From Propylenella binzhouense (GTDB taxonomy: Bacteria; Pseudomonadota; Alphaproteobacteria; Rhizobiales; Afifellaceae), in NCBI RefSeq assembly GCF_009866965.1, contig NZ_SPKJ01000001.1, positions 62,001 to 126,000 on the forward strand: a stretch of DNA of 64,000 nt, written 5' to 3'. This document shows positions 8,605-60,727 of this stretch, one piece after another. Made by a program: the position numbers and the translations under genes. The stretch's first letter is position 1, and each line of letters opens with the position of its first letter. The notes under the pieces are model-generated. The model saw only the letters and a program-made list of their open reading frames with translations, did no database searches and was not told where the DNA came from.

Positions 8605-9666
8605 CTATGCGGCCTCGACCATGAAGCGGGCGACGTCCCGAGCCGCGATCTGCGCCCGAAGGTCCTTGCGCAGCACGTCGGGGCCGAGCATGCGGAGATC
8701 CTCGTTGAAGTCGCCCAGCGTCGGCGACAGCACGATCGCCTCGATCCCATCGTCGCACGCGCGCTCGATCAGCGTCGCCATCGCACCGTCGCCGGCCGGA
8801 TCGTCGTCGCGCGCGATGTAGAGGCGGCGCAGCGTGTCCGCGAAGAGGATGGCCGAGAGATGGGCGGCCGACAGAGCGGCGACCATCGGCATGTCGGGCA
8901 GCGCCATCCTGAGCGAGAGCATCGTCTCGATGCCTTCGCCCGCGGCCATGACCTCGCCGGCGACGCCGAAGCGGACGGCGTGTCCGAGAAGATCGCCCAT
9001 CGCGCGGCGTGGCGTGTCGATCGGCGCCTTGCCGAGACGGACAGGATCGAAGCCTTCGGGATCGAGCCAGGTCCGGTGTGCGCCAGTGAGGCGGCCGTCG
9101 AGATCGGTGACGGCTGCGATCATGGCGGGCCAGGTCTCGGTCGCGGAATGCTCGTCCGGTCGATAGTAGCAGCGCGCGTGGAAGCGGAGCGATCCGGTTC
9201 CGTGCAAAGACGTAATGCCGCGTCGGCGGAGATATGCCTCGACCAGCGTGCCATGGATCGGCCGCGACATGGCGAACAGCCGCCGGGCGGCTTCAGGCGA
9301 GCCAGTGGGCGCCGGCTGGATCGTGCGGCGACGCTCGCTCGCCTGCGGCTCGGGTTGCGGCAGGCTGAGGAAGGCGCGCGCCTCCTTGGCGACGTCGGCG
9401 AAGTTGACGAGGCCGCAGCTTTCGCGGATCACGTCGAGCAGATCGCCATGTTCGCCCGTGGCGGCGTCGGTCCACTTGCCCGCCGCGCCCTTGCCGCTCT
9501 CCGGGCCGATGAGGCGCACGAACATCGAGCGGCCGGGCGTGTTGCGCACGTCGCCGACCATCCAGTAGCGGCCTTCGCGGCGGCCGTTGGACAGGTATTG
9601 ACGGCACACCGCCTCGGCATTGCGCGCGAGACGGTGTGCCAGTTCCGAAGCATCGAGCCTGGACAT
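8605..9666 (-). CDS. Toprim-domain (primase-like, DUF7146-type) protein
   Basis: A 353-aa protein. The N-terminal 110 residues (RYWMVGDVRNTPGRSMFVRL, WTDAATGEHGDLLDVI) resemble the CHC2/DUF7146-type zinc-lacking primase N-domain. The C-terminal half is a Toprim fold with the glutamate motif AAGEGIETMLSL and the DxD motif ARDDDPAGDGA. It is expected to make primers or process replicating DNA of the mobile element after transfer. The ATG at 9666 shares its A with the stop of the upstream helicase gene (TGATG), indicating translational coupling. Confidence 0.85.
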   Translation of the reverse strand: MSRLDASELAHRLARNAEAVCRQYLSNGRREGRYWMVGDVRNTPGRSMFVRLIGPESGKGAAGKWTDAATGEHGDLLDVIRESCGLVNFADVAKEARAFLSLPQPEPQASERRRTIQPAPTGSPEAARRLFAMSRPIHGTLVEAYLRRRGITSLHGTGSLRFHARCYYRPDEHSATETWPAMIAAVTDLDGRLTGAHRTWLDPEGFDPVRLGKAPIDTPRRAMGDLLGHAVRFGVAGEVMAAGEGIETMLSLRMALPDMPMVAALSAAHLSAILFADTLRRLYIARDDDPAGDGAMATLIERACDDGIEAIVLSPTLGDFNEDLRMLGPDVLRKDLRAQIAARDVARFMVEAA

Positions 9667-12600
9667 CACGCCGCCTCCCGCTCGCCGACGCGCACGACCG
9701 GATAGCGGTCCATCACCCTGGCGAGGATCGCGGGCCCGCTTGCGTCGTTGGGCACGAACAGGCGCAGCTTCCACGAGATGATCTCGGAGTAGAGACCGTA
9801 GGCGCAAAGCCGCTCGCGCATCGTGTCGGTGAAGCCCGACAGTTCGATGCGATAGCCGCCCATCACCCGGACGCGGCGGAGCTGAAGCCCCTCGGCGAGG
9901 TCGATGACGGTCTTGCCTTCGAGGAGGGCGGCGAAGGCGTCGTCCGGTGTCAGCGAAGGCAGGCTGGTCGCGGTGGCCGTCGCCGCCCAGGCGGGCGAGA
10001 CCCGGCGGCCGATGATGCGTTCGCCGTCATCGGTTTGCAGCCGGTAGACGCGAGTCGACTCGTTCGGCAGCCGCTTCCAGATCGGCAGGAGCAGACCCGC
10101 GACCATGTGGATGGTCGAGTCCGCGAACGGCGGCACCTCGTTCAGTTCCGCGGTCCAGGCCGCGGCGAAGGCTGTCTCGTCCGCCTCCTGCCAATGGCTC
10201 TCTGCCATGGTGCGCACGGGCATGTTTGGCGCTTCCATCGGCCGGATCAGGCGGACGCGGTATTCGACCTCGCCATCGTCCAGCATGACGGATGGTGCGT
10301 GGACCTGCACGGCGGCGCGGCCGGAGCGCTCGTTGATCAGAAGCCGCGCCCCGCGCTCACAGAGCCGGCTCAGCGCTTCGTCGAGCGTGACCGGCCGGTT
10401 GCGCTGACGCTGCTTGATGGTCAGCAATCGCGTCTCGGCGCCGGTGCCAGGATGGGTGTAGATCGTCTGTCGATCGGTGACGATGAAGCTTTCGGCCCGC
10501 AGCGTCTCCAGTCCCATGTCGTAGGTGCCGGCGGCGATTGCACCCTCGATGCGCCCGTTCAGGAGTTGCTCGAAGGCAGTGAACAGGATGCCTTGCAGCT
10601 CGATGGTCAGCGCGAGCATCCGGTTGAGGAAGGTGGTGATCGGCGGCAGCTCGTCCTTGATGCCGTTCGCGTCCATGAGCTTGAGGCCTGTCGCCGCCTC
10701 GAACCGCTGCAGCGAGCAGCCCTCGACCTTGCCGCGAACGAGCAGCATGTAGAGCTGGCGCAAGGCGTCACGCGCATAGTGGGACTCCAGATTGTCCTCC
10801 GGCCGGAAGAGACCTTGACCGCCAGTCTGGCGCTGGCCGCGCGTGATCGCGCCGAGCGTATCGAGCCGGCGCGCGATCGTGCTGAGGAAGCGCTTCTCGG
10901 CCTTGACGTTGGTCGCGACCGGCCTGAACAGCGGAGGCTGCTGCTGGTTGGTGCGATGCGTGCGGCCGAGGCCCTGGATGGCTGCATCCGCCTTCCAGCC
11001 GGGCTCGAGAAGATAGTGCACGCGAAGGCGCGTATTCCTCGCCGTGAGCTCGGCATGATAGCTGCGCCCGGTCCCGCCCGCGTCGGAGAAAATCAGGATG
11101 CGCTTCTGGTCGTCCATGAAGGCTTGCGCCTCGGCGAGATTGGCGGAGGCGGCCCGGGTCTCGACGACAAGACGGTTGTTTCTGGCGGCGCCGCCCGACT
11201 TGCGAACAATGCAGCGCGAGCGGCCGGTCACCTCGGCGACGATGTCGGTGCCGAAGTGCTGGACGAGCTGATCGAGCGCCCCGGGAACGGGTGGCAGGCT
11301 GGCGAGCTTGGCAATCAGAGAGTCACGGCGAGCAACCGCCTCGCGGCTCTCGACCGGCTGGCCGTCGCGATAAACCGGGCGTGACGACAGCTTGCCTTCC
11401 GAATCCGTGAACGGCTCGTAGAGCTGGACCGGAAAGGAGTGGGCGAGATAGTCGAGAACGTATTCCCGCGGCGTGATATCGACGCGAACGTCGTTCCATT
11501 CCTCGGTCGGCAGTTCTGCAAGACGCCGCTCCATCAGCGCCTCGCCCGTCGAGACGATCTGGACGACGGCGGCATGGCCTTCCTCAAGATCGCGCTCGAT
11601 CGAGCGGATCAGGGTCGGCGTCTTCATCGACGTCAACAGGTGGCCAAAGAAACGCTGCTTTGCGCTCTCGAATGCCGACCGGGCGGCCGCCTTGGCCTGG
11701 CGGTTGAGCGTCCCCGAGCCGCCTTCGCTTCCGCCGGTGATGTTGGCGGCCTGCATGGCGGCATCGAGGTTGTTGTGAATGATCGCGAACGCGTCGGCAT
11801 AGGCGTCGTAGATGCGCGTCTGCTCGGCCGTCAGCTCATGCTCGACCAATTCGTATTCGACGCCGGCGAAGCTCAGCGAACGCGAGGTATAGAGGCCGAG
11901 TGCCCGCAGGTCGCGGGCGAGCACTTCCATGGCCGCGACACCGCCGGCCTCGATCGCCTCCACGAACTCGGCCCGCGTCGAGAACGGAAAGTCCTCGCCA
12001 CCCCAGAGGCCGAGGCGCTGCGCATAGGCGAGATTGTGCACTGTCGTCGCGCCGGTGGCGGAGACATAGACAATGCGGGCGTCGGGAAGTGCATGTTGCA
12101 GCCGCAGGCCGGCGCGGCCCTGCTGCGAGGCTTCCTGATCGCCGCGTTCACCCTTGGCGCCGACCGCGTTCTGCATGGCATGGGCTTCGTCGAAAATGAT
12201 CACTCCATCGAAGTCGGAGCCCAACCATTCAACGATCTGCCTCACGCGGGAAAGGCGTTCGCCGCGGTCGTCGGACCGTAGCGTGGCGTAGGTGGTGAAT
12301 AGGACGCCTTCCCGAAGCGTGATCGGCTTGCCCTGCGGGAATCGCGAGAGCGGCGTGACGAGCAGGCGCTCCATGCCAAGCGCGGACCAGTCGCGCTGCG
12401 CGTCCTCGATGAGCTTGTCGGACTTGCTAATCCACACCGCCTTGCGCCGGCCCTGCATCCAGTTGTCGAGGATGATGCCGGCCGACTCGCGCCCTTTGCC
12501 GACGCCGGTGCCGTCGCCGATCATGCAGCCGCGGCGGAAGCGGACCGCGCCCTTGGCGTCCTCGGCGGTGGCGGTCACGATGTCGAGGGTGTCGTCCACG

Positions 12601-14021
12601 GTCCAGGCGCCGGCGAGATAGTCGGAATGCGCCTCGCCGGCATAGATGACGGTTTCGAGCTGGGCGCAGGAAAGCAGGCTGAGGATGTTCGCCGGAAGGC
12701 GCGGACGATAGCTCGGCTTCGGCGGCGCGACCGAGGCCATCGCCGCCGACTGGACGAGCTGCGTCGGGTGATCCTGAGCGGCGGGAATCCGGATGCTCTG
12801 GAGCGCATAATCCTCGTAGATGGAATCGGAGAGGCGCGCGCCCTGCGGCGGCGTCCAGTCGACCGTCTCGTAGGTGAGCTCGATGCCGGCTGGTTCGGCC
12901 GCGCTCGTGGACTGCGATGCGGCTCGGGCGGCGCGAGCGATGTAGCCGCGAACGGTGCGCGGCGTGGTGACAGTCGGAACGGCGACGGAGGGAGCGACCG
13001 GCAGCCGTGCCGGAACGTGCTCCGCGATCCAGGCCAGCAGCGTGGCAATGTCCGGCGCGACGCCAGGCGCAGCCGGGAACACGGTGGGATCGTCGGCCGG
13101 GCGCTTGTCGATGACGGTCAGCCGCGTCGGGAACGTCGTGCCGTGCCTGGCATATATCCGGCCGTCGATGGCGGCGGAGAAGACGACGCGCCCGCGCTCC
13201 TGCAGCCGGACATAGGAGTCGCGCCAGGCCGGAGCGTCGGGCGCGAAGTTGGCCCCGGTGATCGCGACCAGGCGGCCGCCATCGGCGAGCCGCGCCAGCG
13301 CCGAGCCGATATGGCGGAGCGCGGCGTCGGCCATGCGGCCCTGCACGTTCGCCATCGCCGAGAACGGCGGATTCATGATGACGACGCTCGGCACGATGGC
13401 GGCATCGAGGTGATCGTGAATCTGCGCGGCGTCGTGCCGGGTCACCCCGATGGTCGGAAACAGCAGCGAGAGAATGCCGGCGCGGGTTTCGGCCAGTTCG
13501 TTGAGGATGAGCGATCCGCCCGCGATCTCCGCGAGGATGGCGAGCAGGCCGGTGCCGGCCGACGGCTCTAGCACGCGGTCGGCCGGCGTGATCGCGGCGG
13601 CAGTCAGTACCGCGAGGCCGAGCGGGATCGGCGTCGAGAACTGCTGGAGGGCCTCGCTCTCGGTCGAGCGGCGCGTGTGCGTCGGCAGGAGGCCGACGAT
13701 CTTCTCCAGCATGGGGAGGGCCAGGGCCGGAGAACCGGCCTTGCGTAGAAGCGCCTTTCCGTATTTGCGGAGAAACAGAACGGTCGCGGCCTCGCAGGCG
13801 TCGTAGGCCGTCTTCCAGTCCCAGGCGCCGGACGTATCGGAGCCGGCGAAGGCTTGCTCCATCACGGCACGTAGGAACGCCGCGTCGACTTGGCGGCCCT
13901 GTTCGAGATAAGGGAGGAGGAGCTGGGCGGCCGTGCCGATGCAGCGAGCGATACCAGGACGCGGCGCAAGCGCGGGTGTCGCGACCGCAGGCGCGGCCGC
14001 GAGAGCGGTGGATGTGGTCAT
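9666..14021 (-). CDS. N6-methylase-like/strawberry-notch superfamily 2 helicase fusion
   Basis: A 1,451-aa fusion. Residues about 125-300 form a Rossmann methyltransferase-like domain with EPSAGTG (152-158) and NPPF (217-220), the SAM and catalytic motifs of N6-adenine methylases. From about residue 440 follows a strawberry-notch-type SF2 helicase with Walker A GDGTGVGKG (502-510), Walker B DEAH (611-614) and a C-terminal helicase core (IFSDAGGTGRSYHA, IQGLGRTHR). Such proteins are hallmarks of alphaproteobacterial ICEs and large plasmids and may protect or remodel incoming DNA; the exact reaction is not established. A diverged copy of leader A lies 25-75 bases before the ATG. Confidence 0.9.
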   Translation of the reverse strand: MTTSTALAAAPAVATPALAPRPGIARCIGTAAQLLLPYLEQGRQVDAAFLRAVMEQAFAGSDTSGAWDWKTAYDACEAATVLFLRKYGKALLRKAGSPALALPMLEKIVGLLPTHTRRSTESEALQQFSTPIPLGLAVLTAAAITPADRVLEPSAGTGLLAILAEIAGGSLILNELAETRAGILSLLFPTIGVTRHDAAQIHDHLDAAIVPSVVIMNPPFSAMANVQGRMADAALRHIGSALARLADGGRLVAITGANFAPDAPAWRDSYVRLQERGRVVFSAAIDGRIYARHGTTFPTRLTVIDKRPADDPTVFPAAPGVAPDIATLLAWIAEHVPARLPVAPSVAVPTVTTPRTVRGYIARAARAASQSTSAAEPAGIELTYETVDWTPPQGARLSDSIYEDYALQSIRIPAAQDHPTQLVQSAAMASVAPPKPSYRPRLPANILSLLSCAQLETVIYAGEAHSDYLAGAWTVDDTLDIVTATAEDAKGAVRFRRGCMIGDGTGVGKGRESAGIILDNWMQGRRKAVWISKSDKLIEDAQRDWSALGMERLLVTPLSRFPQGKPITLREGVLFTTYATLRSDDRGERLSRVRQIVEWLGSDFDGVIIFDEAHAMQNAVGAKGERGDQEASQQGRAGLRLQHALPDARIVYVSATGATTVHNLAYAQRLGLWGGEDFPFSTRAEFVEAIEAGGVAAMEVLARDLRALGLYTSRSLSFAGVEYELVEHELTAEQTRIYDAYADAFAIIHNNLDAAMQAANITGGSEGGSGTLNRQAKAAARSAFESAKQRFFGHLLTSMKTPTLIRSIERDLEEGHAAVVQIVSTGEALMERRLAELPTEEWNDVRVDITPREYVLDYLAHSFPVQLYEPFTDSEGKLSSRPVYRDGQPVESREAVARRDSLIAKLASLPPVPGALDQLVQHFGTDIVAEVTGRSRCIVRKSGGAARNNRLVVETRAASANLAEAQAFMDDQKRILIFSDAGGTGRSYHAELTARNTRLRVHYLLEPGWKADAAIQGLGRTHRTNQQQPPLFRPVATNVKAEKRFLSTIARRLDTLGAITRGQRQTGGQGLFRPEDNLESHYARDALRQLYMLLVRGKVEGCSLQRFEAATGLKLMDANGIKDELPPITTFLNRMLALTIELQGILFTAFEQLLNGRIEGAIAAGTYDMGLETLRAESFIVTDRQTIYTHPGTGAETRLLTIKQRQRNRPVTLDEALSRLCERGARLLINERSGRAAVQVHAPSVMLDDGEVEYRVRLIRPMEAPNMPVRTMAESHWQEADETAFAAAWTAELNEVPPFADSTIHMVAGLLLPIWKRLPNESTRVYRLQTDDGERIIGRRVSPAWAATATATSLPSLTPDDAFAALLEGKTVIDLAEGLQLRRVRVMGGYRIELSGFTDTMRERLCAYGLYSEIISWKLRLFVPNDASGPAILARVMDRYPVVRVGEREAA

Positions 14022-14045
14022 GTCGGTGAACCTCGGGAGAGCGGA

Positions 14046-14096
14046 ATGGGCGAGCCGGCCGGCGCTCTCTCTGGACCGCTCCGGCTCAAACCCGTC
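14046..14096 (-). promoter_or_regulatory. structured leader A, diverged copy (helicase gene)
   Basis: The minus-strand leader carries GACGGGTTTGAG like copies A2 and A3, then pairs GAGCCGG with CCGGCTC (14052-14058 / 14081-14087) around an AGAGAGAG-containing loop. The outer closing arm CCCGTC is degraded to CCCATTC here. Confidence 0.4.
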
Positions 14097-14117
14097 CTGG
14101 CCAAGCTCTCCCTCTCG

Positions 14118-16508: not shown

Positions 16509-18662
16509 TCACTCGGCGGCGATCATCGCCGGGTCGTCGGCGTCGGCTTCGCCGTCACCCGGTTGCTCGTCCTCATCGTCGGCGAGGAATGCCGGCAGCG
16601 CATCGTCGCCGTCGGTCTCGCTCGCGTCCGCCGTGCTCGTTGCGTCGGGATCGGCGGGACGCAAGGGCTCCGGCAGCCAGCCGGTATCCGCGAGCAGGCG
16701 CTCGGCCTCCTTGGCCATGTCGGCCTTCTTGAGGTGGTCGATGAGCTGCGCCTTCTCTTCGCCGAGCGCTTCTCGCACGGCTTCGACGATCCGGCTCTTC
16801 GTGACGCGGCCGAGATAATTCGCGACGCTCGGACGCCATCCAGCCTCCACCATGTCGAGGCCCGTGGCACGCGCGAGCCGTTCGGCTTCGCGCATCCGCC
16901 GGTCGAGCCCGTGCTGGGAGACGCCGTTGCCGCTATAGGGATTCGGACGCTCGTAAAGAGCGTTGACCCCGTAGCTGACGCAATGCGCGAGCAGCGCGAG
17001 ACGGCTTGCATCGTCGAGCCCTGCGATCCAGTCCCATAGGCGATCGTCGTCCTCGAGCGGCATGTCGGCCTTCCAGGCCTCGACGCGCGCCTCGATCGCC
17101 TTGGCGGAGGCGCTGTGCTTCAGGTCGGTGGCCTGGACAGGGAAGTGAACCTCGCGAACTGCTGCCTCGACGGCGGAACCGTGTGCGTTGCGCTTGAAGG
17201 CGTCGAGCACGAGCTTGTGCAGGAGCGCCGTGAGGGCGACATGCGGGTGATTGGCGACTGATTCACGCAGCGCCAGCGTGCGATGCGCGGTGAGCTCGAT
17301 GACCAGGCGCTCGGGCAGCGGTTTGACGCCATCATCGTCCTCATCATCGTCGCCCTCTAGTTCTTGTCCGCCGATGGTGATGACAGCGCGCTGAACGGAC
17401 GGTGTTGCGGGAGCATAAACCCCGCCGTCCTCTCCATCGGCCTCGGCGTCGCCGCCGTCGACGGCAACAGGGGCCTCGTCCTCGGGCCGCACATAGCCAC
17501 GGTCGACCACGATGTCGCCGTCGCGGTCCACGCTGACGAAGACCCCGGCGCGAGCGATCTCGGCGGGATCGTAGACGACCGGGCGCTTCTCGAAGGCATC
17601 GAGAGCCTCCTCGATCTCGCCCAGCCGCTGATCGATCTCGTCCGGCAGCTCGTCGGCGCCATCATATTTCGCCTCGAGCCGATCGTATTCTGCGCGCAGC
17701 GTCTCGCGGTCGGCCCGTTCCTCGTTGGTGAGATCGACGGAAGCGCCGGTGATCTGGCGCAGACCATGATCGTAGCCATACGGTAGGTCGAGGTCGATCT
17801 TCACCCACTTCCAGCCTTCGCTGGCGATCTCTTCGGCCACGGTCTTGAGCCGCTCGCCGACCAAGCGATGGAGCAGCGCTGGGTCCTGGAGCCAGCCGCC
17901 GTTATCGTCCTCGAACAGGTCGCGCAGCACCGCGCCACCGGCGGCGACATATGCGTCGATGCCGACGAAGCGCGCACGCTTGTCGGACGCCGCAATCGTG
18001 CTCTCGGTGAGCAACTGGCGGATATGCCAGGGCTGCCGATTGTACGAATGCTGCACCGCCTCCCACACCTGCTCCTGACGCTCGTGATCCGGGTTGACGG
18101 TGAAGGCCATCAACATGTCGAGCGTCATGCTCTCCGCGGCATAGGCATCGCGGAGCGTCGGCGACACCGCGTTGAGACGGAGGCGCTGTTTGACGACCTG
18201 AACGGTCGCGAGGTACGCCGCTGCGATCTCCTCCTCGGTCATGCCCTTGTCGAGCATGTCCTGGAAGGCGCGAAACTGGTCGAGCGGGTGAAGGCCGGCG
18301 CGCAGCAGGTTCTCGGCGAGGGAGTCGTCCTCGGCGAGGATCTTGGTGTCGGACTTGCGCACAATGCAGGGCACGAGCCCGTCCTTGGGGAAGCGCTTGG
18401 CCTTGACCAGGCGCTCGATCGCCCGATAGCGGCGACCGCCGGCCGGCACCTCGAACATGCCGGTCTCATTGCCATCGGCATCAAGGACGGGGCGGACATT
18501 GAGGCCCTGGACCAGGTCCTCGCGCCGGCCGATGTCGTGGGTTAGCTCGTCGAGGTCGGCCTCAGGCCGGATGCGCCGGACATTCGACTCGGACAGCACG
18601 AGCTTGTTGAAGGGGATGTCGCGCGAACGCGAGAAGACGATCTTCTTGGTAGCCTTTGCCAT
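16509..18662 (-). CDS. ParB/RepB/Spo0J-type partition protein
   Basis: A 717-aa protein. The N-terminal ParB CTPase/nuclease-like domain spans residues about 12-130 (IPFNKLVLSESNVRRI, LVQGLNVRPVL, FEVPAGGRRYRAI, LAEDDSLAENLLR), followed by a ParB-type helix-turn-helix (GMTEEEIAAAYLATVQVVKQRL). The remaining 500 residues are an ICE-type extension with acidic linkers (EGDDDEDDDG). It is larger than chromosomal ParB (about 300 aa). No parA is present beside it, so this is probably an orphan ParB of the mobile element acting in maintenance or transcription. Leader A2 (18678-18717) lies 15 bases before the ATG. Confidence 0.88.
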   Translation of the reverse strand: MAKATKKIVFSRSRDIPFNKLVLSESNVRRIRPEADLDELTHDIGRREDLVQGLNVRPVLDADGNETGMFEVPAGGRRYRAIERLVKAKRFPKDGLVPCIVRKSDTKILAEDDSLAENLLRAGLHPLDQFRAFQDMLDKGMTEEEIAAAYLATVQVVKQRLRLNAVSPTLRDAYAAESMTLDMLMAFTVNPDHERQEQVWEAVQHSYNRQPWHIRQLLTESTIAASDKRARFVGIDAYVAAGGAVLRDLFEDDNGGWLQDPALLHRLVGERLKTVAEEIASEGWKWVKIDLDLPYGYDHGLRQITGASVDLTNEERADRETLRAEYDRLEAKYDGADELPDEIDQRLGEIEEALDAFEKRPVVYDPAEIARAGVFVSVDRDGDIVVDRGYVRPEDEAPVAVDGGDAEADGEDGGVYAPATPSVQRAVITIGGQELEGDDDEDDDGVKPLPERLVIELTAHRTLALRESVANHPHVALTALLHKLVLDAFKRNAHGSAVEAAVREVHFPVQATDLKHSASAKAIEARVEAWKADMPLEDDDRLWDWIAGLDDASRLALLAHCVSYGVNALYERPNPYSGNGVSQHGLDRRMREAERLARATGLDMVEAGWRPSVANYLGRVTKSRIVEAVREALGEEKAQLIDHLKKADMAKEAERLLADTGWLPEPLRPADPDATSTADASETDGDDALPAFLADDEDEQPGDGEADADDPAMIAAE

Positions 18663-18677
18663 ATCGGTTTGCTCCGC

Positions 18678-18717
18678 GACGGGCGCCGAGAGCCTCTCTC
18701 TCGGACCTAAACCCGTC
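18678..18717 (-). promoter_or_regulatory. structured leader A2 (40 nt, upstream of parB)
   Basis: On the minus strand an outer stem GACGGG/CCCGTC closes an inner 7-bp stem (CCGAGAG 18686-18692 / CTCTCGG 18698-18704) with a 5-nt loop. Leader A3 at 20186-20225 has the same length and fold; three inner base pairs differ by compensatory changes and one becomes G-U. It ends 15 bases before the ATG. Confidence 0.7.
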
Positions 18718-18785
18718 ACGAAGCGAAGCGTCGCCCTCTTACTCTGAGGACGGCGCAGCCTGCTGACGATCCGGAGAAGGGCAGA

Positions 18786-18817
18786 GCCGGAGACGCGCGC
18801 GAACGCGCATCTCCGGC
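18786..18817 (-). terminator. strong hairpin after the DUF2958 gene
   Basis: Arms GCCGGAGA (18786-18793) and TCTCCGGC (18810-18817) continue, after one mismatch, into GCGCG/CGCGC with a CGAA loop. It starts 24 bases past the DUF2958 stop and is a likely transcription barrier or 3' stabiliser, although no U-tract follows. Confidence 0.5.
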
Positions 18818-18841
18818 CCGGGAGTTCCAGGATGAGGCGCT

Positions 18842-19213
18842 TCACACGCCATCACCACGAGCACGCTGCGCGCGGTAGAGGATGCGTTCGGCGGCGCGGA
18901 CGCTTCCTGCCTCGCGGGCGGCCTCCGCCCAGGTCGAGAGCGTGAAGTCGCCGGTGAAGAGGATGTCGCGTTCGATCCCCATCCCGAACGGCAGACGGAT
19001 CGAGGTTAGCTCCTCGAGGGAAAAGCTGCCGAGCTCAGGATCGCCGAGATCGGCTAGGCCGAATAGCGTGTCGCCGTCGCCGTCCAACTCGGTAGCGAGC
19101 CAGACGCCTTCGCCCAGGGGATTAAAGAACTTGACGACAGGGACATGATCGGCGCCGCGTTCGCGGCCGTTGGCGAGCAGACGCTCGCGCAGGTCGTCGG
19201 TCAGGAGGATCAT
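18842..19213 (-). CDS. DUF2958 family protein
   Basis: A 123-aa protein matching DUF2958: LLTDDLRERLLANGRER, PVVKFFNPLGEGVWLATELD, LFGLADLGDPELGSFSLEEL, LPFGMGIERDILF. DUF2958 proteins are conserved in ICEs and broad-host plasmids, usually next to ArdC-type genes, and their activity is not known. The ATG overlaps the ardC-like stop by four bases (ATGA), so the two are translationally coupled and probably function together in the recipient. Confidence 0.88.
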   Translation of the reverse strand: MILLTDDLRERLLANGRERGADHVPVVKFFNPLGEGVWLATELDGDGDTLFGLADLGDPELGSFSLEELTSIRLPFGMGIERDILFTGDFTLSTWAEAAREAGSVRAAERILYRAQRARGDGV

Positions 19214-20172
19214 GCCGCCCTCCTATCGATGTTGGTTTCGTCGGACTCCGTGGCGGCGGTGGTCTCTGGCAGGAAAGTGAGCAGCCAATCCGCAGCCTTG
19301 CTGGCCTGGGATGCGGAGCGGACAATGGCGCGATTGTCCTCCCGTAGCACGTCGAGCCACGAGGCGATGTAGTCGGTGTGCCGCACAGTCGGGACGATGC
19401 CGAGGGAGGCGCAGCAGAAGGCCGCGTTCATCTCGGCGACCAGTTCCTCAAACGCATACTTCTTCGAGCCGAAGGAGCCGGAAAGATCGCGGCCGAGGCG
19501 GGACGCATGGCCTGTCGCATGACCAAGCTCATGCAGGGCTGTGCGGTGCCAGTTGATCGTCTCGAAATAGGCCTGCGGAGGCGGCACCTGAACGTAGTCG
19601 TGCGCTTGCACGTAGAAGGCGCGATTGCCCCCGATCCGGAAGTCGATTCCCGTCGCCTTGATCAGCGCCTCTACGCGCGGCTCGATCAGGCCGGCCTCCG
19701 GTGCGGGTGGCGCGACGGCGAGGTCATCGGGCAGGTCCTCGCATTGCGCGACGTTGAAGACGGTGAAGCGCTTGAGGAACGGAATGGCCTGCGCTTCCTC
19801 GCCGGTTTCCTGCGCGCGCTTCTTCTCGTCGTCGGGAATGAAGCGGTCGGCGTAGACGACGGTGGTGCCGCGCTCGCCCTTGCGGACATGGCCGCCGAGT
19901 GAGAGCGCCTGGCGGAACGTCAGCCAGCACTGCAGCGGGAAGCCATGCTCGATCACCGCGCCCCACAGGATCAGCACGTTGATCCCCGAATACTGCCGGC
20001 CGGTTGCCGCGTTGGCTGGCATGGCGAGCGGCGCTTTCGCCCCGGCCGTGCCCCAGGGTTGGACCCAGGGCACGCGGCCGGCCTCCAGCTCGGCGATGAT
20101 CTTGTTGGTGATGTCGTCATAGAGGCTCGCCCGGTCGGCGCCGGCACGAACGTTGCGGTTATGTCTGGACAT
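19210..20172 (-). CDS. ArdC-like antirestriction protein (ssDNA-binding domain + zincin metallopeptidase)
   Basis: A 320-aa protein. Residues about 14-130 are the ArdC N-terminal ssDNA-binding domain (ASLYDDITNKIIAELEAG, VPWVQPW, YSGINVLILW, VRKGERGTTVVYADRF). The C-terminal half is the MPTase-like zincin with HELGH (214-218) and a downstream Glu region (YAFEELVAEMNAAFCC). ArdC proteins protect incoming single-stranded plasmid DNA against restriction. It is the promoter-proximal gene of this block; leader A3 lies 13 bases before the ATG. Confidence 0.9.
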   Translation of the reverse strand: MSRHNRNVRAGADRASLYDDITNKIIAELEAGRVPWVQPWGTAGAKAPLAMPANAATGRQYSGINVLILWGAVIEHGFPLQCWLTFRQALSLGGHVRKGERGTTVVYADRFIPDDEKKRAQETGEEAQAIPFLKRFTVFNVAQCEDLPDDLAVAPPAPEAGLIEPRVEALIKATGIDFRIGGNRAFYVQAHDYVQVPPPQAYFETINWHRTALHELGHATGHASRLGRDLSGSFGSKKYAFEELVAEMNAAFCCASLGIVPTVRHTDYIASWLDVLREDNRAIVRSASQASKAADWLLTFLPETTAATESDETNIDRRAA

Positions 20173-20185
20173 CGCGGTTCTCCGC

Positions 20186-20225
20186 GACGGGCGCCGGAGG
20201 CCTCTCCTCCAGCCCTCAACCCGTC
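20186..20225 (-). promoter_or_regulatory. structured leader A3 (40 nt, upstream of ardC-like gene)
   Basis: Outer stem GACGGG/CCCGTC and inner 7-bp stem as in leader A2, ending 13 bases before the ATG. Compared with A2, three inner pairs switch A-U/G-C in both partners and one C-G becomes U-G, so pairing is kept while sequence changes. Confidence 0.7.
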
Positions 20226-20265
20226 ACGGCGAACCCGGTCCGCACTCTCACTCTCTAGGGGCGTT

Positions 20266-20331
20266 GCGGGGGTGTCCCCGCAGAAGGGGTCGGCCGAGAC
20301 CTTGGCTCGGCCGCAGGGGAAGGCCTTCCCC
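20266..20331. repeat. three consecutive perfect palindromes
   Basis: GCGGGG-gtgt-CCCCGC (20266-20281), CGGCCGAG-n7-CTCGGCCG (20291-20313) and the uninterrupted GGGGAAGGCCTTCCCC (20316-20331) lie in tandem in the intergenic region between the ardC-like gene and abiE. Such arrays are typical of protein-binding regulatory or replication/transfer sites; the actual role is unknown. Confidence 0.55.
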
Positions 20332-20452
20332 TCCACTCACTTGGATCACGTCTCTATCACTTCCAATCTGCGGGGCGGTGACTTCCCAATCACTATGCGT
20401 CGCATCTCCGATTTTCCAAGGACGAGCAGGCTACCAAAGGCAGGAGGGAGGT

Positions 20453-20499
20453 GATACAAAACCTCGTAGTATAGGAGCCATATTACGAGTATTTGTATC
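20453..20499 (+). promoter_or_regulatory. inverted-repeat operator at the abiE promoter
   Basis: GATACAAA (20453-20460) and TTTGTATC (20492-20499) are perfect outer arms; CCTCGTA and TACGAG continue the pairing inward with few mismatches over about 18 bases per side. The repeat ends immediately before the abiEi ATG at 20501. AbiEi antitoxins are known to repress their own promoters through inverted repeats, so autoregulation is expected. Confidence 0.7.
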
Positions 20500-20500
20500 A

Positions 20501-21118
20501 ATGCCTCACACCGGTTCCCAGCGGCAAGCCGCCAAGGCCCTTCTTCAGGAGCGAGGAATCGTGCGCCTAGCCGAACTGCGCACCGCCGGCATAACAGCCG
20601 CCACGATGAGCCGTATGGAAAGGGACGGCGAAGTGCTGCGGCTGGCCCGGGGACTATATCAACTCCCCGATGCAGCGCTGGACGCAAGCCATAACCTGGC
20701 CGAAGCCGCCAAGCGCGTACCCAAGGGCGTCGTCTGTCTGGTTTCGGCGCTCGCCTTCCACGGCCTTACCGATCAGCTTCCGAGGAAAGTCTGGCTCGCG
20801 ATCGGTCAGAAGGACTGGGCACCCAAACCAGACAGTTCGTCCATTCGGATCGTCCGTTTCACGGAGAGCCTGCTCACCGAAGATGTGGAGACGCACATCA
20901 TCGAAAGCGTGCCGGTGAAGGTCTTCAGCGTCGCCAAGACCATCGCAGATTGCTTCCGGCATCGCAGCAAAATCGGCCAGACAGTCGCCATCGAGGGGCT
21001 TCAGGAAGCGCTGCGTCAGCGCAAGGCCACGCCGGGGGAAATTGCCCGCCAAGCTGAACGCGGGGGCGTATCCACCGTGATCCGGCCCTATCTCGAAGCG
21101 CTGACTGCGAATGGCTAA
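20501..21118 (+). CDS. abiEi: AbiEi-family antitoxin
   Basis: A 205-aa protein. The N-terminal 60 residues form a winged-helix (LLQERGIVRLAELRTAGITA, MSRMERDGEVLRLARGLYQL) like the AbiEi_4 DNA-binding domain, and the rest is the AbiEi antitoxin domain (PKGVVCLVSALAFHGLTDQL, VWLAIG, VKVFSVAKTIADCFRHRSKIG). Type IV antitoxin and transcriptional repressor of its own operon. The start at 20501 is preferred over the long upstream frame because it follows the operator directly and gives the family length. It overlaps abiEii by 8 bases. Confidence 0.88.
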   Translation: MPHTGSQRQAAKALLQERGIVRLAELRTAGITAATMSRMERDGEVLRLARGLYQLPDAALDASHNLAEAAKRVPKGVVCLVSALAFHGLTDQLPRKVWLAIGQKDWAPKPDSSSIRIVRFTESLLTEDVETHIIESVPVKVFSVAKTIADCFRHRSKIGQTVAIEGLQEALRQRKATPGEIARQAERGGVSTVIRPYLEALTANG

Positions 21119-24617: not shown

Positions 24618-27600
24618 CTAGACCGGCCGCCGCAAAGCCTCGAAAACAGAAATGAAGCTTCGCTGCGGATCGACCCTGAGACCGTGGTTTCGCTCGGCAT
24701 CATCCCAGGCGGACGCGAGTTCAGGACCCACCGCGGTTCTGTCGGTGAGCCACAGCGGGTGGGTGATGATGACCGCCTCTCTGCCGTCTGTCAGGGCAGG
24801 CAGGCTGCCGAACAGCGTGCGGCTGAAGCCCGGCCGCGCCGCCTCGAGCGTGACAGCCGCAAGATCCGCAACGCGGCTCCATCTTGGGGACGATAGCAGG
24901 AGCGGAACGGACGGATCGAGCGCGAGCTGCGCCATGTCGATCGCGAGCCGCCAGTCGAGCAGATTATGGTAGGCGAGGTTGCTGTAGCTGCGCAGACAGT
25001 CGGGACAGGATGTGTCGCAGACGTCCGCGTGAGAGTGGGCAGCCAGCCGGTCATGAAATTCGCGCGGCGTCGGCTGCGCGATCATCTCCAGCAGTTCCTG
25101 CATGGCTGCCGGTGTGCCGAGGTGGGTGGCGTAGCCTGCGCCATTCTCGAGCGTGTCGGAGAGGAAGACCTGGCCGACAACAGTGCCGAGCGCGGGGTCT
25201 TCCTGGCTGCGGATGCCCGCCTTCAGCTCATAGTCCTGGATATCGAGATAGACGGCCGCAGCGCGGCGCAGCATGAAGGCCAGCGAATAGAGCGCCGCCC
25301 GCCCCTGCGGTGTCCGGGGATCGGCGCCACGCCCAGGGCCATAGTCGCGGATGCCCAGCAGCATCATGTCGGTTTCGGTGATCGCTGCTAGCGCGCAAGG
25401 CACCACGGGAGCAGTCGGCGGGAGCGGCGGCGCCGGCCGCCGTCCGACCGATGCAGCCCACTTCTCCTCTGCGGCATTGGCCGCGGCGACGTCGATCATC
25501 GCCTCGCTGCCGAAGCGGCGCTCCTGTGAAAAACGGAAAAGCCTGCCGGCATTGTCATTGACGACGTGAAGCCGTCCCTGGCCAGCGCCGACATCGAAAT
25601 TCAGGTGCGGCGTGATGGGAAAGGCTGGCCTGCCGACCTTCGGCCGCGCGGCACGAGGGACGAAATCGAACACACCATCATAGTCGCGCGCCTTGGTGAA
25701 ATAGCTGACGAAGCCTTTTGGCTGGCGCAGGTCCATCGGGTGGTAGTCGCGTTCGTCCGGCCCCGTCGGTGATGCGCAGACTGGACAGGCTGGGACGTCG
25801 GGGGTCACCGTCTCGACATGCTGGCAGTTGCCGCAAAGTCCGATGCGGACCGATGGACCGAGCGGGTTGCTGTCTTCGACAGCGCGAGGTCCCTGGGGCC
25901 GATAGTGCGCGACGCCGATGGCGGTGTGGATAGTCCGCTCCTTCACGGTCTCGGCGCCGGGGGCGAACATGCTGACCGCGAGTTCGAGATCGCGGTCGAC
26001 GACCTGGCGGGGCGGCCAGTTCGCGGGCTGCTTGTGGTAGAGCAGGCGTGCACGGGTCGGGAACCCGAACATCGGAAGGATGCCGCGATTGGCGAGCCGC
26101 TCGCTCAGGCCGATCTGGATAAGGCTCTGATCCTGGGTCGCAGCCGTGATTTCGGGCACGAGCCTGGTGGTGATCCAGCCGATCGCGGCCGTCCGCTGGG
26201 CGGCGTCGTCGGCGAGACGCGTGCCGACCAGGAGCGCATCGCAGGTGCCTGCGATGGCAGCATGATGCCGGCCGATCCATTCCTGGATGATGTCGGCGAC
26301 GGTCGTGCCCGTATAGCCGGCAGGCGGATTGGGCGGCGGCTGAGTCCACGCGTCGGCCGTGCCGAACTCGCCATGCACGCTGTCTCCTGCCGTGCCCGGG
26401 AATAGACTGAGCTCGGAGAAGACCCTGCGCAGCACTTCCTTCGCAAAAACACGCAGGAGGATCTGCGGCCTGTTGGTATCGACATATGGCGGAGGCGGTG
26501 GATCGGCCGTGATCCGCTCGGGCCGCTGGAAATAATAGTCGTCGTGACTGCGGCCGCGGCAAAGCGTCAGCGCCAGTGAAAGCGGTGCGCCGCGGCGTCC
26601 TGCGCGTCCGACGCGCTGCTGGTAGTTGAAGCGCATCGGCGGCATGTTGGCCATCATCACGGCAAGCAGCGATCCGATGTCGACGCCGGCCTCCATGGTG
26701 GTGGTCACGCTTAGCAGGTCAATATTGTCGGTGAGCGGCACTTCAGCACCGACCGTGATGTTCTGGAAGAGGCGCTGGCGGTCGCGTGCCAGCAGCTTGT
26801 CCGTCTGGCCGGTGAGCTCGGCGCAATTGAGCCGGAAGATGGGGCCGGCGCTCACAGCCAGCCAGCGGTAGTAGTCGGCCTCCTGGCCGGCGTCATCGAT
26901 CCCGATGCGCAGCGGCGTGCCGAGCCGGTTGTGGCAGCCGCTGCAGATTCCGCCGCTTGCATGCAGATGGATGCGCGAACAGCGGCCGCATTCATAATAG
27001 GTCTCGCCGGCATCGGCGGCGAACAGGCCGCGGAAGAGCAGCAGCCCCTGATCGAACACGCCCGCCGATGTCAGGAGATCGGTGACGTCGCGCTCGAAGT
27101 CGGCCGGAACGAGCCCATTCAAGGCGGCGACGGCTTCGAGATAATCGCGCGCATATTTCGGGAGGCGCGGGTCATCGACGGTCGCGCGATGAGTGTCGAT
27201 GCGGCGCCGCTTGCCGAGCATGCGGATGCAGCTGTCTGCGGCTTCGCGGATGACTGCGGAAGTGCCGACGGGCCGCATGCGGTCGAACGTGACATAGCCG
27301 AGCTTCAGGGATTCGAGGTCGCGCCGGCCGCCGGAGAACAGCGTCTCGGCGACGGCTTCGCGTGCCGCAACCTGGATGCGCGTGCGGTGTGCCTGCTCCT
27401 CGCCTGAAAGCGCCGGCCTGTAGTCCGGCGGAGAGCGGGTCCAGTCGAAAAGCCGCTGCCATTCGCCCTGGTGCTCGTCGAGGTCAGTCCACATGACGCT
27501 GCGGTCGACACCGCCGGGGTTCATGCCGGTGGTGAGCAGGCGGCGTGCGGCCTCCTCCTCGAGGTCGGTGACGCGCGAGAGCCCTGCACGGGCCCGCGCA

Positions 27601-30263
27601 AGAACCTGGGCCGCGAGCTGCTCCATCGTCAGGCCGCCGACTGCCGACGGCAAGGTGCGCAAAGTCGGGTGCTGCGCCGAGTGGATGGCTTGTGCTTCCG
27701 TCTGCCGCGAAACGGCGAACCGCCCGGCGAGCGTGGTTTCTTCAGGATTCAGGGCGGCACCCTGGACCTGCCGCTCGAAGAGAAGCACCGCGCGCGTGCT
27801 CTCGGTCATGCCATCGACCAGCGCCTGGCGCAGCCCGTCGAGCCAGTGGGACTTGGCGACGCCGACGGCGAGCTTGGCAGCGTCCTGCCGGCTGTCGGAA
27901 AAGAGGACGAGCTTGCGGCGCACATCTTCCGGCGGCGGACCGGCAGCCGGCTGCGGTGGTGCGATCTCGCGCAGCAGTGAATCGGAGAGCACTTGCGCGA
28001 CCTTCTGGAAGCCGGTGCGCTGCGTGCGGATGGGCGCGGAGCTGGCCATTCCGCTCCAGTTGGCTTCGCACTGGGGGCAAACCGATGGACGCTCGTTGCG
28101 GGCGCTCGGGACGGCCGCACGCGGCGGCACGGGATTCTGGTGAAGATCGGCGACATGGTAGATCCAGCCCGTCGCGTCGGTGCTCCGCCGCGCAACCTGG
28201 ATCTCGCCTGTGCGGTGGTCGAAGACGGCCATGCGCCACCTGCGCGTGACGCCCTCCTGGACCCAGCTGTCCCGCTGCGGCTGCCGGAGCGTGCCGTCCG
28301 GCAGCCGCGCGGGCCAGTAGATGGCGTAGTTGTCGTAGTCGCGATCGTTGGCCGAATGGTCTGGTGCCTTTTCGATGTTGGGATCGTCGGGGACCAGCGA
28401 CCAGACATTCTGCTGCAGCGTGCGGCGGTAGCCGCCCAGAAAGATGTCGCCGCAGGGCTCGCAGTAGAGCATCTCGAGGACGCGCGATCCGCATGCGCAG
28501 GTGGTCGTCGGGCGGTCGAAGAGCCGGCCGACCGGAATGGCAGCGTCGGTCCAGGACGCCTCGCTGCATTGCGGATTGCTGCACGCCCAGACGCCCTGGA
28601 CATTTCGGAAGAAAAGATGGACACGGATCGGCAGTAGCGGCGCGGCACTTGGCGATTGCGCGGGCGCCATGGCTGCGACGAGCCCCGTCGCGGCCGCCGT
28701 CGCATCCTCCCGCGCGTCATCGGGAAAGAGCGTGGCGCCGAGCGCGCCGATGGTCCGGGGTACGACCGTTGGATTCTCGTCCGTGCCGCCATTGCATGCG
28801 GCTCGCACGGCATCCGGCACGCCGGCGTCCGCCAGCACGGTGCCCAGCTGCTGCGCTTCGGGCAGGCTGGCGTCGGGCGCCGGCAGGCCGGCTGCGGCCG
28901 CGAACGCACTGGCCGCAGCTGAGAGACTGGTCCCGCCGCCATTGGCGATCTGATGTCCAAGGTCCGTAAGCGGAGCGGCGAGGTGGCGCAGACGGTTCGC
29001 CGCACCGGGAGACAGCGGGAGCGCACCGCCTCTGATCAGGTCGAACGGGCGCGACCGGCCGAAAAATTGCTGCAGATAGTCCTGCGCCCGGGCTTCGTCT
29101 TCGCCGAGCGATGCGCTGGAGGCCAGGATGCGCAGTTGCGGATGATCGGGATCGAGGCCGAGACGGTCGTAGAGGACGCGAAGGATGTAGCCAACCTCGG
29201 TCCCCGGCGTGCCGCGATAGGTATGCAGCTCGTCGATCACGAGATGGAAGATGTTGGCGGGATCTGCCTCTAGCCATTGGCGGGTCTGGTCGAAGATGGG
29301 AACTTCGACGTCCCGCATCAGCATGATGTTCAGCATGCTGTAGTTGGTGATGAGGACGTCAGGCGGTGCATCCTGCATATCCCAGCGGCTCCACGCCTCG
29401 CCGCCATCGAAGCGGGGGAAGAAGCGCTCGGCGTCGGTTCCGGCGACGCGCGCGGCCATGCTGCTCAGCCGCTGCAGTTCGGTGCGCAGCTCGCCTTCCG
29501 CGCCATCGCGGTCCGGCCGTCCCGAAACCGGTGTCCAGCCCGTATAGCGCCCGAACCAGAAGCGGTTGCCCGGGCGGTTTGCGCCGAGCCAGGCGCGCAC
29601 CTGATCGCCGTCGAGGGCCAGGCGCAGTCTCGCCATCTGGTCTTCGGCGAGTGCGTTGAGCGGATAGAGAACGAGCGCGCGCATGGCCGGCAGCCGGCCT
29701 CCCTGCTCGTGCGCACGCTGGGAGATCCGCGGATGGTAGCGCCGGTTTCCAGAGCCCAGGGGCGGCGGCATGGTCCACCAGTCGTTGCGCGGCGCTGGAG
29801 CAAGCGCGGGCCAGGAGGCGGATTCTCTGATGAGTGCGGCAAGGACGGGGAGATAGATGGATTCGGTCTTGCCCGATCCTGTGCCGGTGAGGATGACCGA
29901 GTCAGCGCCGCGCAGGACGCTCGAACGCAGCATCTCCACCTGATGTGCGTACAGCTCGATCGGAACGGCGCCGCGCGGCAGGTACAGGCCCCGTTCGGCA
30001 ATGCCTGCGAGGTCGCCTACGGCTGCGGCTGTCCAGCCCGCAGCCGCTCCAAGTACGCTCGTCACAGCGGAGCGCACGTCATGGCCGCTGCCGGCGTATG
30101 GCGGCTGCGGCTCTACAAGCGGCTCGCGATAGAGTACGCCGTCGCGGTCGAGCAGCTGCCGGCGGGATCGGACCAATTCGTCAAAGCGCAGGTCGAAGGG
30201 GCTGTCGAAATAGCGCAGATATGCGCCTTTCAGGTTCTGAAAGGTCAGGATTGGATCGCTCAT
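24618..30263 (-). CDS. giant DUF1998-type DEAD/DEAH helicase, DruE-like
   Basis: A 1,881-aa SF2 helicase. Walker A GTGSGKT at 127-133, Walker B DELH at 344-347, motif III ASSASLG, and helicase C motifs VTTTMEAGVDIGSL and NYQQRVGRAGRRG are all present. Several zinc-ribbon pairs follow (CSNPQC, CACG, CEPCG, CPQC, CGRC..CSGC, CGNC..CPVC). The C-terminus ends in the DUF1998/MZB pattern CDTSCPDCLRSYSNLAYHN. Length and layout match DruE, the signature helicase of Druantia defence systems. It is coupled by a 4-base overlap to the gene before it and one base from the nuclease after it. Confidence 0.85.
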   Translation of the reverse strand: MSDPILTFQNLKGAYLRYFDSPFDLRFDELVRSRRQLLDRDGVLYREPLVEPQPPYAGSGHDVRSAVTSVLGAAAGWTAAAVGDLAGIAERGLYLPRGAVPIELYAHQVEMLRSSVLRGADSVILTGTGSGKTESIYLPVLAALIRESASWPALAPAPRNDWWTMPPPLGSGNRRYHPRISQRAHEQGGRLPAMRALVLYPLNALAEDQMARLRLALDGDQVRAWLGANRPGNRFWFGRYTGWTPVSGRPDRDGAEGELRTELQRLSSMAARVAGTDAERFFPRFDGGEAWSRWDMQDAPPDVLITNYSMLNIMLMRDVEVPIFDQTRQWLEADPANIFHLVIDELHTYRGTPGTEVGYILRVLYDRLGLDPDHPQLRILASSASLGEDEARAQDYLQQFFGRSRPFDLIRGGALPLSPGAANRLRHLAAPLTDLGHQIANGGGTSLSAAASAFAAAAGLPAPDASLPEAQQLGTVLADAGVPDAVRAACNGGTDENPTVVPRTIGALGATLFPDDAREDATAAATGLVAAMAPAQSPSAAPLLPIRVHLFFRNVQGVWACSNPQCSEASWTDAAIPVGRLFDRPTTTCACGSRVLEMLYCEPCGDIFLGGYRRTLQQNVWSLVPDDPNIEKAPDHSANDRDYDNYAIYWPARLPDGTLRQPQRDSWVQEGVTRRWRMAVFDHRTGEIQVARRSTDATGWIYHVADLHQNPVPPRAAVPSARNERPSVCPQCEANWSGMASSAPIRTQRTGFQKVAQVLSDSLLREIAPPQPAAGPPPEDVRRKLVLFSDSRQDAAKLAVGVAKSHWLDGLRQALVDGMTESTRAVLLFERQVQGAALNPEETTLAGRFAVSRQTEAQAIHSAQHPTLRTLPSAVGGLTMEQLAAQVLARARAGLSRVTDLEEEAARRLLTTGMNPGGVDRSVMWTDLDEHQGEWQRLFDWTRSPPDYRPALSGEEQAHRTRIQVAAREAVAETLFSGGRRDLESLKLGYVTFDRMRPVGTSAVIREAADSCIRMLGKRRRIDTHRATVDDPRLPKYARDYLEAVAALNGLVPADFERDVTDLLTSAGVFDQGLLLFRGLFAADAGETYYECGRCSRIHLHASGGICSGCHNRLGTPLRIGIDDAGQEADYYRWLAVSAGPIFRLNCAELTGQTDKLLARDRQRLFQNITVGAEVPLTDNIDLLSVTTTMEAGVDIGSLLAVMMANMPPMRFNYQQRVGRAGRRGAPLSLALTLCRGRSHDDYYFQRPERITADPPPPPYVDTNRPQILLRVFAKEVLRRVFSELSLFPGTAGDSVHGEFGTADAWTQPPPNPPAGYTGTTVADIIQEWIGRHHAAIAGTCDALLVGTRLADDAAQRTAAIGWITTRLVPEITAATQDQSLIQIGLSERLANRGILPMFGFPTRARLLYHKQPANWPPRQVVDRDLELAVSMFAPGAETVKERTIHTAIGVAHYRPQGPRAVEDSNPLGPSVRIGLCGNCQHVETVTPDVPACPVCASPTGPDERDYHPMDLRQPKGFVSYFTKARDYDGVFDFVPRAARPKVGRPAFPITPHLNFDVGAGQGRLHVVNDNAGRLFRFSQERRFGSEAMIDVAAANAAEEKWAASVGRRPAPPLPPTAPVVPCALAAITETDMMLLGIRDYGPGRGADPRTPQGRAALYSLAFMLRRAAAVYLDIQDYELKAGIRSQEDPALGTVVGQVFLSDTLENGAGYATHLGTPAAMQELLEMIAQPTPREFHDRLAAHSHADVCDTSCPDCLRSYSNLAYHNLLDWRLAIDMAQLALDPSVPLLLSSPRWSRVADLAAVTLEAARPGFSRTLFGSLPALTDGREAVIITHPLWLTDRTAVGPELASAWDDAERNHGLRVDPQRSFISVFEALRRPV

Positions 30264-36234: not shown

Positions 36235-36299
36235 ACTTGACGGGTTTTTTCCCCGTTCTATATAATGCGAGTCAAGTTTCTCATGTCGCCCCCGACATG
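36235..36299 (+). promoter_or_regulatory. CBASS promoter with flanking palindromic operators
   Basis: TTGACG at 36237-36242 and TATAAT at 36261-36266, 18 bases apart, form a near-consensus sigma-70 promoter toward the CD-NTase. ACTTGAC (36235-36241) and GTCAAGT (36271-36277) bracket it, and CATGTCG-cccc-CGACATG (36282-36299) lies just downstream. A further CATGTCG half-site overlaps the CapH start at 36213-36219. Confidence 0.7.
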
Positions 36300-36358
36300 T
36301 GCAAGCAAAACCCTCACCGGCCGGGCGACTGGCCGCGGCAGCGCCAAGGAGCGACGCC

Positions 36359-37648: not shown

Positions 37649-38138
37649 GCCCGCTCGCCGACGCTCTCCTGACGCGCAACTGGCGGCGATGCGCCGCCAG
37701 TGGCCGGACTTTGCAGGCCGGCGCCTTGGCGACGGGACGCTGATCTGGCAGGGACCGCTGCGGCCGAAAGCGCAACTCTATACGGTCTTCATCTGCTGGC
37801 ATCCCGTCACGATGTCCCTGCCTTACGTCATCGTGGATGATCCGCCGCTGCGGCCCCGCCCGGGCGGCGCCTTCGCGGAAATCCCGCACCTCATCTTCTA
37901 TGCTGACAAGCCGGAACAGTCGGGTCTGTGCCTTTTCGATCCCGAGGGCCGTGAATGGTCGCCGGCCGATCTGATCGCCGACACCACAGTGCTGTGGACC
38001 GCCGAATGGCTGACCTACTATGAACTGTGGCACATGACCGGCGAATGGCTCGCGCCGGGCGTGGGTTACGAGAGCGTCGCGCGGATGATACGGGCCGATG
38101 CGGAGGCCGTGAAGGCGGTGCTGGACGATGTTCACTGA
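37638..38138 (+). CDS. E2-like conjugating protein of short type II CBASS
   Basis: A 166-aa protein with the prokaryotic E2-like fold: TVFICWHPVTMSLPYVIV strands, PHLIFY, then QSGLCLFDPEGREWSPAD, whose Cys98 fits the catalytic cysteine, and a WLTYYELWHMTGEWLAPG C-terminal helix. There is no E1/JAB protein in the locus, so this is the E2-only (type II short) organisation, where the E2 forms a thioester with the CD-NTase C-terminus and primes it. It overlaps its neighbours by 11 bases on both sides. Confidence 0.8.
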   Translation: MKAEPARRRSPDAQLAAMRRQWPDFAGRRLGDGTLIWQGPLRPKAQLYTVFICWHPVTMSLPYVIVDDPPLRPRPGGAFAEIPHLIFYADKPEQSGLCLFDPEGREWSPADLIADTTVLWTAEWLTYYELWHMTGEWLAPGVGYESVARMIRADAEAVKAVLDDVH

Positions 38139-60726: not shown

Positions 60727-60727
60727 G

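Follow-up and report, generated by a model that had tools for sequence, protein, structure and literature searches.

A probable structured 5′ mRNA leader, predicted to pair with the Shine–Dalgarno sequence, shared by ardC, parB-like and other module genes of alphaproteobacterial conjugative elements

What are the two similar hairpins that stand shortly before a parB-like gene and ardC in the DNA of Propylenella binzhouense, and which strand folds into them? Both lie in a stretch of 64,000 nucleotides of contig NZ_SPKJ01000001.1 (the window, to whose positions all coordinates refer unless stated otherwise), and an earlier note on this stretch offered two explanations, a cis-regulatory RNA or a single-stranded-DNA promoter like Frpo. 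To our knowledge, the timing of anti-restriction and maintenance genes is largely open for conjugative elements beyond the F and pLS20 groups. The reading argued for here, to which we assign a probability of about 0.7, is that a structured 5′ mRNA leader controls translation of the partition and anti-restriction module of alphaproteobacterial conjugative elements.

Three leaders in an integrative conjugative element

The window lies within an integrative conjugative element (ICE). The integrase is encoded at 40117–41460, and a DUF3363/relaxase protein, TrbB- and TrbE-type ATPases, RepA and ParA are encoded to the left on the same strand. The scaffold of Tn4371-like ICEs comprises int, RepA/ParA/ParB, a VirD2-type relaxase, TraG and Trb; TraG of the window's element was read by eye. 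A DUF2958 gene (Pfam) is also among the module genes, and the gene order of the window's element recurs on plasmid pYP1 of Ketogulonicigenium.

From the module to the integrase (20558–42853) the window carries dense defence cargo: a Druantia-like DruE (24618–30263) accompanied by a weaker DruK-like nuclease and a C5 methyltransferase, a CBASS-like cyclase–E2–phospholipase trio (36299–39165), a Vsr-type nuclease, an AbiEi/AbiEii pair and an AbiV-type HEPN protein. Elsewhere in the window, 60273–60566 on the plus strand matches the Rfam family 5′ ureB sRNA with a score of 40.7 bits against a cut-off of 40; a long ORF (59020–60879) runs across it on the minus strand.

The leaders and their genes are all on the minus strand. 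ardC (19210–20172) encodes ArdcN and zincin-like metallopeptidase domains (Pfam), and the parB-like gene (16509–18662, ATG start) encodes ParB_N and HTH_ParB domains scoring slightly under the Pfam cut-offs, with homologues annotated as ParB. The core hairpins at 20186–20225 (ardC; 78.1 bits with the covariance model R1 described below) and 18678–18717 (parB-like gene; 72.3 bits) fold as previously described, with minimum free energies of −25.2 and −21.9 kcal/mol, respectively; only 2 of 200 and 1 of 200 dinucleotide shuffles folded as well. Each has GACGGG/CCCGTC arms, an inner stem of 7–8 bp (7 in the earlier note) and a 5-nt loop, AGAGG, and ends 13 nt (ardC) or 15 nt (parB-like gene) before the ATG. 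Reading the two sequences against each other bears out the reported differences, namely three inner pairs changed on both sides and one pair that is C-G in one copy and U-G in the other. When the fold was extended to the ribosome-binding site, z-scores of −5.6 (ardC) and −4.2 (parB-like gene) were obtained and none of 200 shuffles was as good in either case. No T run follows the hairpins, as an intrinsic terminator would have, and a mobile repeat was ruled out by gene linkage, fixed distance and orientation.

In the extended fold the Shine–Dalgarno (SD) sequence GCGGAG, at 20180–20185 (7 nt before the ATG of ardC) and 18672–18677 (9 nt before that of the parB-like gene), is predicted to be paired with a segment on the 5′ side of the basal stem. 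This anti-SD segment lies at 20226–20231 in the ardC leader, where it pairs with GCGGAG except for one G.A mismatch, and at 18718–18723 in the parB-like leader, where CUUCGU is predicted to pair with all of it. Further upstream stands a AGAGNNAGAG box, as an exact match in the ardC leader (AGAGTGAGAG, 20245–20254) and also in the parB-like leader (AGAGTAAGAG, 18736–18745). The SD-pairing stem and the AGAGNNAGAG box, about 28 nt before the arm, are both new beyond the earlier note. Just before the box of ardC a short G+C-rich hairpin, TGCGGGG...CCCCGCA (~20255–20285), is conserved in ardC and DUF932-type leaders and is not conserved in ParB leaders. In ardC leaders a bistable alternative fold, using a GCGGA that repeats the SD downstream of the box, was noticed by eye; it is inconsistent across gene families and is not claimed.

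A third copy had been placed before the helicase gene at 14046–14096, and it is indeed present there as a diverged relative of the other two. The gene (9666–14021) encodes a Strawberry-notch-type helicase (Pfam AAA_34 and Helicase_C_4). This hairpin gives no match to R1; its right arm is CCCATT in the window and CCCGTC in several relatives, which keep the GACGGG/CCCGTC arms. The inner fold is different, the SD (GAGG) is merely flanked by pairing, and the extended fold is not convincing (z −1.8; 11 of 200 shuffles as good). The box is again present (AGAGGGAGAG, 14106–14115), and both RNAalifold and single-sequence folding predict that it pairs with CGCTCTCC (14036–14043), which adjoins the SD. 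Across all loci searched, 60 helicase loci were matched and a start was chosen in 59, of which 58 have box and loop and 54 all four patterns. The box lies about 19 nt from the hairpin in these leaders, with predicted pairing to CGCUCUCC beside the SD; among them this pairing has no covariation support, its letters being nearly invariant. A pseudoknot between the loop and the pre-SD region, where the letters likewise hardly vary, is possible.

A leader family linked to particular genes

A similarity search with the ArdC protein returned 283 relatives, from which the best 80 loci were kept (77–92% identity). Covariance model R1 was built from 88 leaders, and at all 80 of these best loci an R1 match lies directly 5′ of ardC. 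Counting the window as well, the leader precedes ardC in 81 of 81 cases (close relatives, at 77–92% identity), the parB-like gene in 76 of 77 and a gene of 185 aa in 9 of 9; the single parB-like gene that lacks it is 32% identical and located elsewhere. Searching the 80 loci with a DUF932 query gave no gene, hence this family was not anchored by gene. The name DUF932-type is the annotation on plasmid p5; the protein tested stays below the Pfam cut-off (20.6 versus 23 bits).

The covariance model yielded 252 unique leaders in Alphaproteobacteria, in 332 rows, once four matches cut by locus ends and 26 scoring no more than 27 bits had been set aside. Assigned by a text rule on the downstream gene, 134 of the rows precede ParB-like genes, 123 ardC, 31 DUF932-type genes and 44 other or unresolved genes, some of the last being ArdC or ParB by eye. 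With the own genome included, R1 matched 20 of 289 genomes of the class (E ≤ 0.01) and, under a threshold of E ≤ 0.001, matched 37 of 199 genomes of the organism's own order and 32 of 398 sampled from the phylum, where all listed matches fall inside the class; two other orders gave 32 of 82 and 13 of 96 genomes under this second threshold. The ardC leader also found matches in 214 plasmid records by blastn. Leaders are carried by the DUF932-type and ParB genes of the Thioclava plasmid p5, a repABC plasmid typed as non-mobilizable.

Within the P. binzhouense genome, R1 at E ≤ 1 gave seven matches: four are good, two are weak and the remaining one lies on the strand opposite to a good match. Contig C146 holds another pair of ardC and ParB-like genes with their leaders (contig positions 32676–32729 and 35501–35554; L086 and L087), so that a second related element is probable. 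Two loci (L106 and L109) have weak second matches of about 31 bits with another loop and no AGAG box, before a gene of 120–128 aa starting MHDRDYS, and these are possibly a remote subfamily. ArdC- and ParB-like ORFs beside the leader give contig IMGVR_UViG_3300031749_000006 (L228), which is filed as viral, the look of a conjugative element. No Rfam 15 family match overlaps the leaders of the window or of locus L005, the matches there lying elsewhere; the ‘ssNA-helicase’ motif, compared via Rfam, likewise gave no match on the leaders. An earlier description of this leader was not found in the literature searched, whose scope mostly excluded subscription papers.

The earlier note had argued from two copies that the fold, and not the sequence alone, is kept, and had named covariation no greater than expected by phylogeny as the finding that would speak against it. 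Compensatory changes were counted as pair-preserving two-sided branches on trees of the downstream proteins, with 300 simulations per gene family. The counts lie above the null in all three families: 31 in 115 ardC leaders (null mean 4.2, maximum 11), 22 in 103 ParB leaders (3.3, maximum 9) and 12 in 27 DUF932-type leaders (3.7, maximum 9). The stricter all-pairs G-test, on a tree from the leaders themselves, was weaker: E fell below 0.05 for only 1 of 18 pairs, although the structure accounts for 7 of the 10 pairs that scored highest. Because alignment A2 had been picked by a regular expression demanding GACGGG and CCCGTC, its outer stem is invariant by construction, and changes in the outer arms were judged on model matches instead. 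The arms are near-invariant there, with compensated variants GACGGA/TCCGTC in six, GGCGGG/CCCGCC in four and GACGAG/CTCGTC in two of the 252 leaders. R1 favours pairing sequences, so that counts on its matches lean towards structure. A conserved secondary structure, supported by covariation on protein trees and less strongly by the all-pairs test, thus lies 5′ of specific genes.

Folding strand, Shine–Dalgarno pairing and upstream box

A half-way change between two pairs appears as G.T when it is the coding-sense strand that folds, whereas folding of the template strand leaves A.C on the coding strand. Counted as cells rather than events, the half-way states on the coding strand of the 252 leaders were 770 G.T versus 50 A.C, or 380 versus 49 without two standing U.G pairs (390 cells). 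The 51 ardC leaders chosen by gene gave 165 versus 7, and 69 versus 7 without the same two pairs. Expressed as changes on the protein trees, the G.T:A.C ratios were 43:13, 55:10 and 23:6, compared with 51:34, 49:19 and 21:11 under the null, so that the excess is real but moderate. R1 scores point to the same strand, the opposite strands of the same places reaching about 15–27 bits versus 31–81 for the leaders. The preponderance of G.T indicates that the mRNA sense folds and not the template, which removes the main support for an Frpo-like promoter.

Outward from GACGGG/CCCGTC the stem goes on, with GCGGAG facing a conserved 5′ segment. From the inside outward, the six positions of GCGGAG are paired in 96, 96, 93, 92, 88 and 96% of 102 ParB leaders, in 99, 98, 100, 99, 40 and 84% of 90 ardC leaders (the A of the SD thus in 40%) and in 92, 100, 96, 96, 58 and 92% of 24 DUF932-type leaders; with the partner displaced by one or two letters the average falls to 26–63%. 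The innermost SD pair is U.G in 169 of the 252 leaders, U-A in 46 and C-G in 23. In a sample of the first 60 ardC, the first 60 ParB and 26 DUF932-type leaders, the mean unpaired probability of GGAG was 0.185, 0.083 and 0.143, respectively, versus 0.421, 0.334 and 0.386 with shuffled flanks. GGAG ends 7–9 nt 5′ of an ATG in 240 of the 252 unique leaders. The leader structure is therefore predicted to engage the ribosome-binding site through paired GCGGAG.

The upstream box is coupled to the hairpin. AGAG..AGAG occurs within 32 nt upstream of the leader in 208 of 247 unique leaders, compared with 0.2% of shuffled sequences and none in the preceding 28 nt. Its start mostly lies 22–24 nt before the model start, which corresponds to about 28 nt before GACGGG. 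The window has three box matches, one per leader, and the 80 loci have 209, of which 17 lack a hairpin by pattern, six of these being leaders by eye. A GAGAG motif is also present in the inner arm or loop region of 220 of the 252 leaders. An antisense RNA directed against the box was considered and rejected: with full complements tested, no other AGAGNRAGAG was found on either strand of the window, nor did the 60 kb on its left side contain AGAG[GTC][GA]AGAG.

Proposed translational control and its alternatives

The first proposal of the earlier note, a cis-regulatory RNA, is supported by these data and sharpened by the predicted reach of the stem into the SD. The folded leader would mask the ribosome-binding site by pairing GCGGAG with the conserved anti-SD segment and so hold translation back. 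Reduced translation from the masked site, the existence of a factor and a role in timing or dosage around conjugative entry are inferred. The box, the loop region with its GAGAG and the outer arms, which hardly vary, are linked at a fixed distance and are most simply marks for one factor, and the leader is probably read by such a factor. This could be a protein or, less likely, an RNA; bound to box and loop, it would open or lock the leaders, set the level of translation, perhaps timed to entry, and switch ardC, the parB-like, DUF932-type and 185-aa genes and, through its diverged leader, the helicase gene together. With leaders present on the non-mobilizable p5 as well, a trans factor encoded by the element would belong to the few proteins that the modules share, the alternative being a host factor. 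The fuller proposal, that an RNA-binding factor of element or host reads the AGAG box and loop and switches the whole module, so that ArdC, ParB-like, helicase and DUF932-type proteins would surge together on entry, is tentative, and we would not bet on it at even odds.

No trans factor for the leaders was found. This, together with a predicted fold that is very stable and pairs the SD, would also suit a passive attenuator, in which the hairpin keeps translation low and constant and no factor reads it. The sequence-kept outer arms, the GAGAG motif and the fixed-distance box would, however, be superfluous for such a device, and we regard it as rather unlikely. An element of mRNA stability or processing, acting in 5′ protection or as a nuclease site instead of as a translation switch, would fit a stable 5′ UTR hairpin with an upstream purine box, but leaves unexplained both the fixed spacing to the start codon and the SD in the stem, and is improbable. 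Box and inverted repeat might instead be bound as double-stranded DNA by a regulator or by RNA polymerase; the box is a direct repeat at a fixed distance, and dyads can also show two-sided changes. Duplex DNA nevertheless offers no reason for G.T far above A.C, the repeat has a one-sided internal loop, the pairing reaches the SD, and a scan of 18600–20600 with an E. coli-type consensus found no sigma-70-like pair, so that we give a DNA operator or promoter very little chance. The Frpo-like promoter active on the incoming strand, which the earlier note had also proposed, has the right kinds of gene, co-oriented with and upstream of the relaxase and trb genes in the window's element and pYP1, in an order that fits a leading region if oriT lies between, but the wobble test places the fold on the coding-sense strand, opposite to the incoming template strand, the same consensus scan gave no −35/−10-like pair and the SD already occupies the basal stem, which makes the promoter the least credible of all.

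SD-sequestering translational leaders in general have the SD, close upstream of the start codon, paired in a stem. Unlike these, the present leader is one design across unrelated genes of a mobile-element module, with an upstream AGAGNNAGAG box in addition. The closest published idea found is EGeRS1 of the pLS20 family, a conserved sequence containing inverted repeats that recurs immediately upstream of the ribosome-binding sites of several establishment operons, including ardC (PMC8708921). It resembles our leader in being repeated before ardC and other establishment genes, but on the paper's description it is 400–750 bp long and belongs to Gram-positive plasmids, whereas ours is about 75 nt, alphaproteobacterial and has an SD-pairing stem; its authors argue against a single-stranded-DNA promoter and give the mechanism as unknown (PMC8708921). 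Like our leader, Frpo/ssi elements place a hairpin upstream of genes that belong to the leading region of conjugative elements or act against defence, but there, as described, the transferred strand folds and carries −35/−10 boxes (PMC11541004), whereas here the coding-sense strand folds and the E. coli-type consensus scan of 18600–20600 gave no site. STAXI is described as a candidate structure of tandem pseudoknot repeats near ssDNA-binding, antirestriction and integrase genes (PMC2864571); our leader, in contrast, is one SD-adjacent hairpin with no overlapping Rfam match.

A leader common to several genes that the element probably needs on settling may thus give them one shared translational control. 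Across many genera of Alphaproteobacteria, plasmids and integrative elements carry this leader of about 75 nt, which marks a candidate regulon that is already at hand, and R1 can be used to predict module genes, several of which have no Pfam family. If one factor does switch the whole module on entry, this would be an RNA-level counterpart, across Alphaproteobacteria, of Frpo promoters and of repressor-based zygotic induction.
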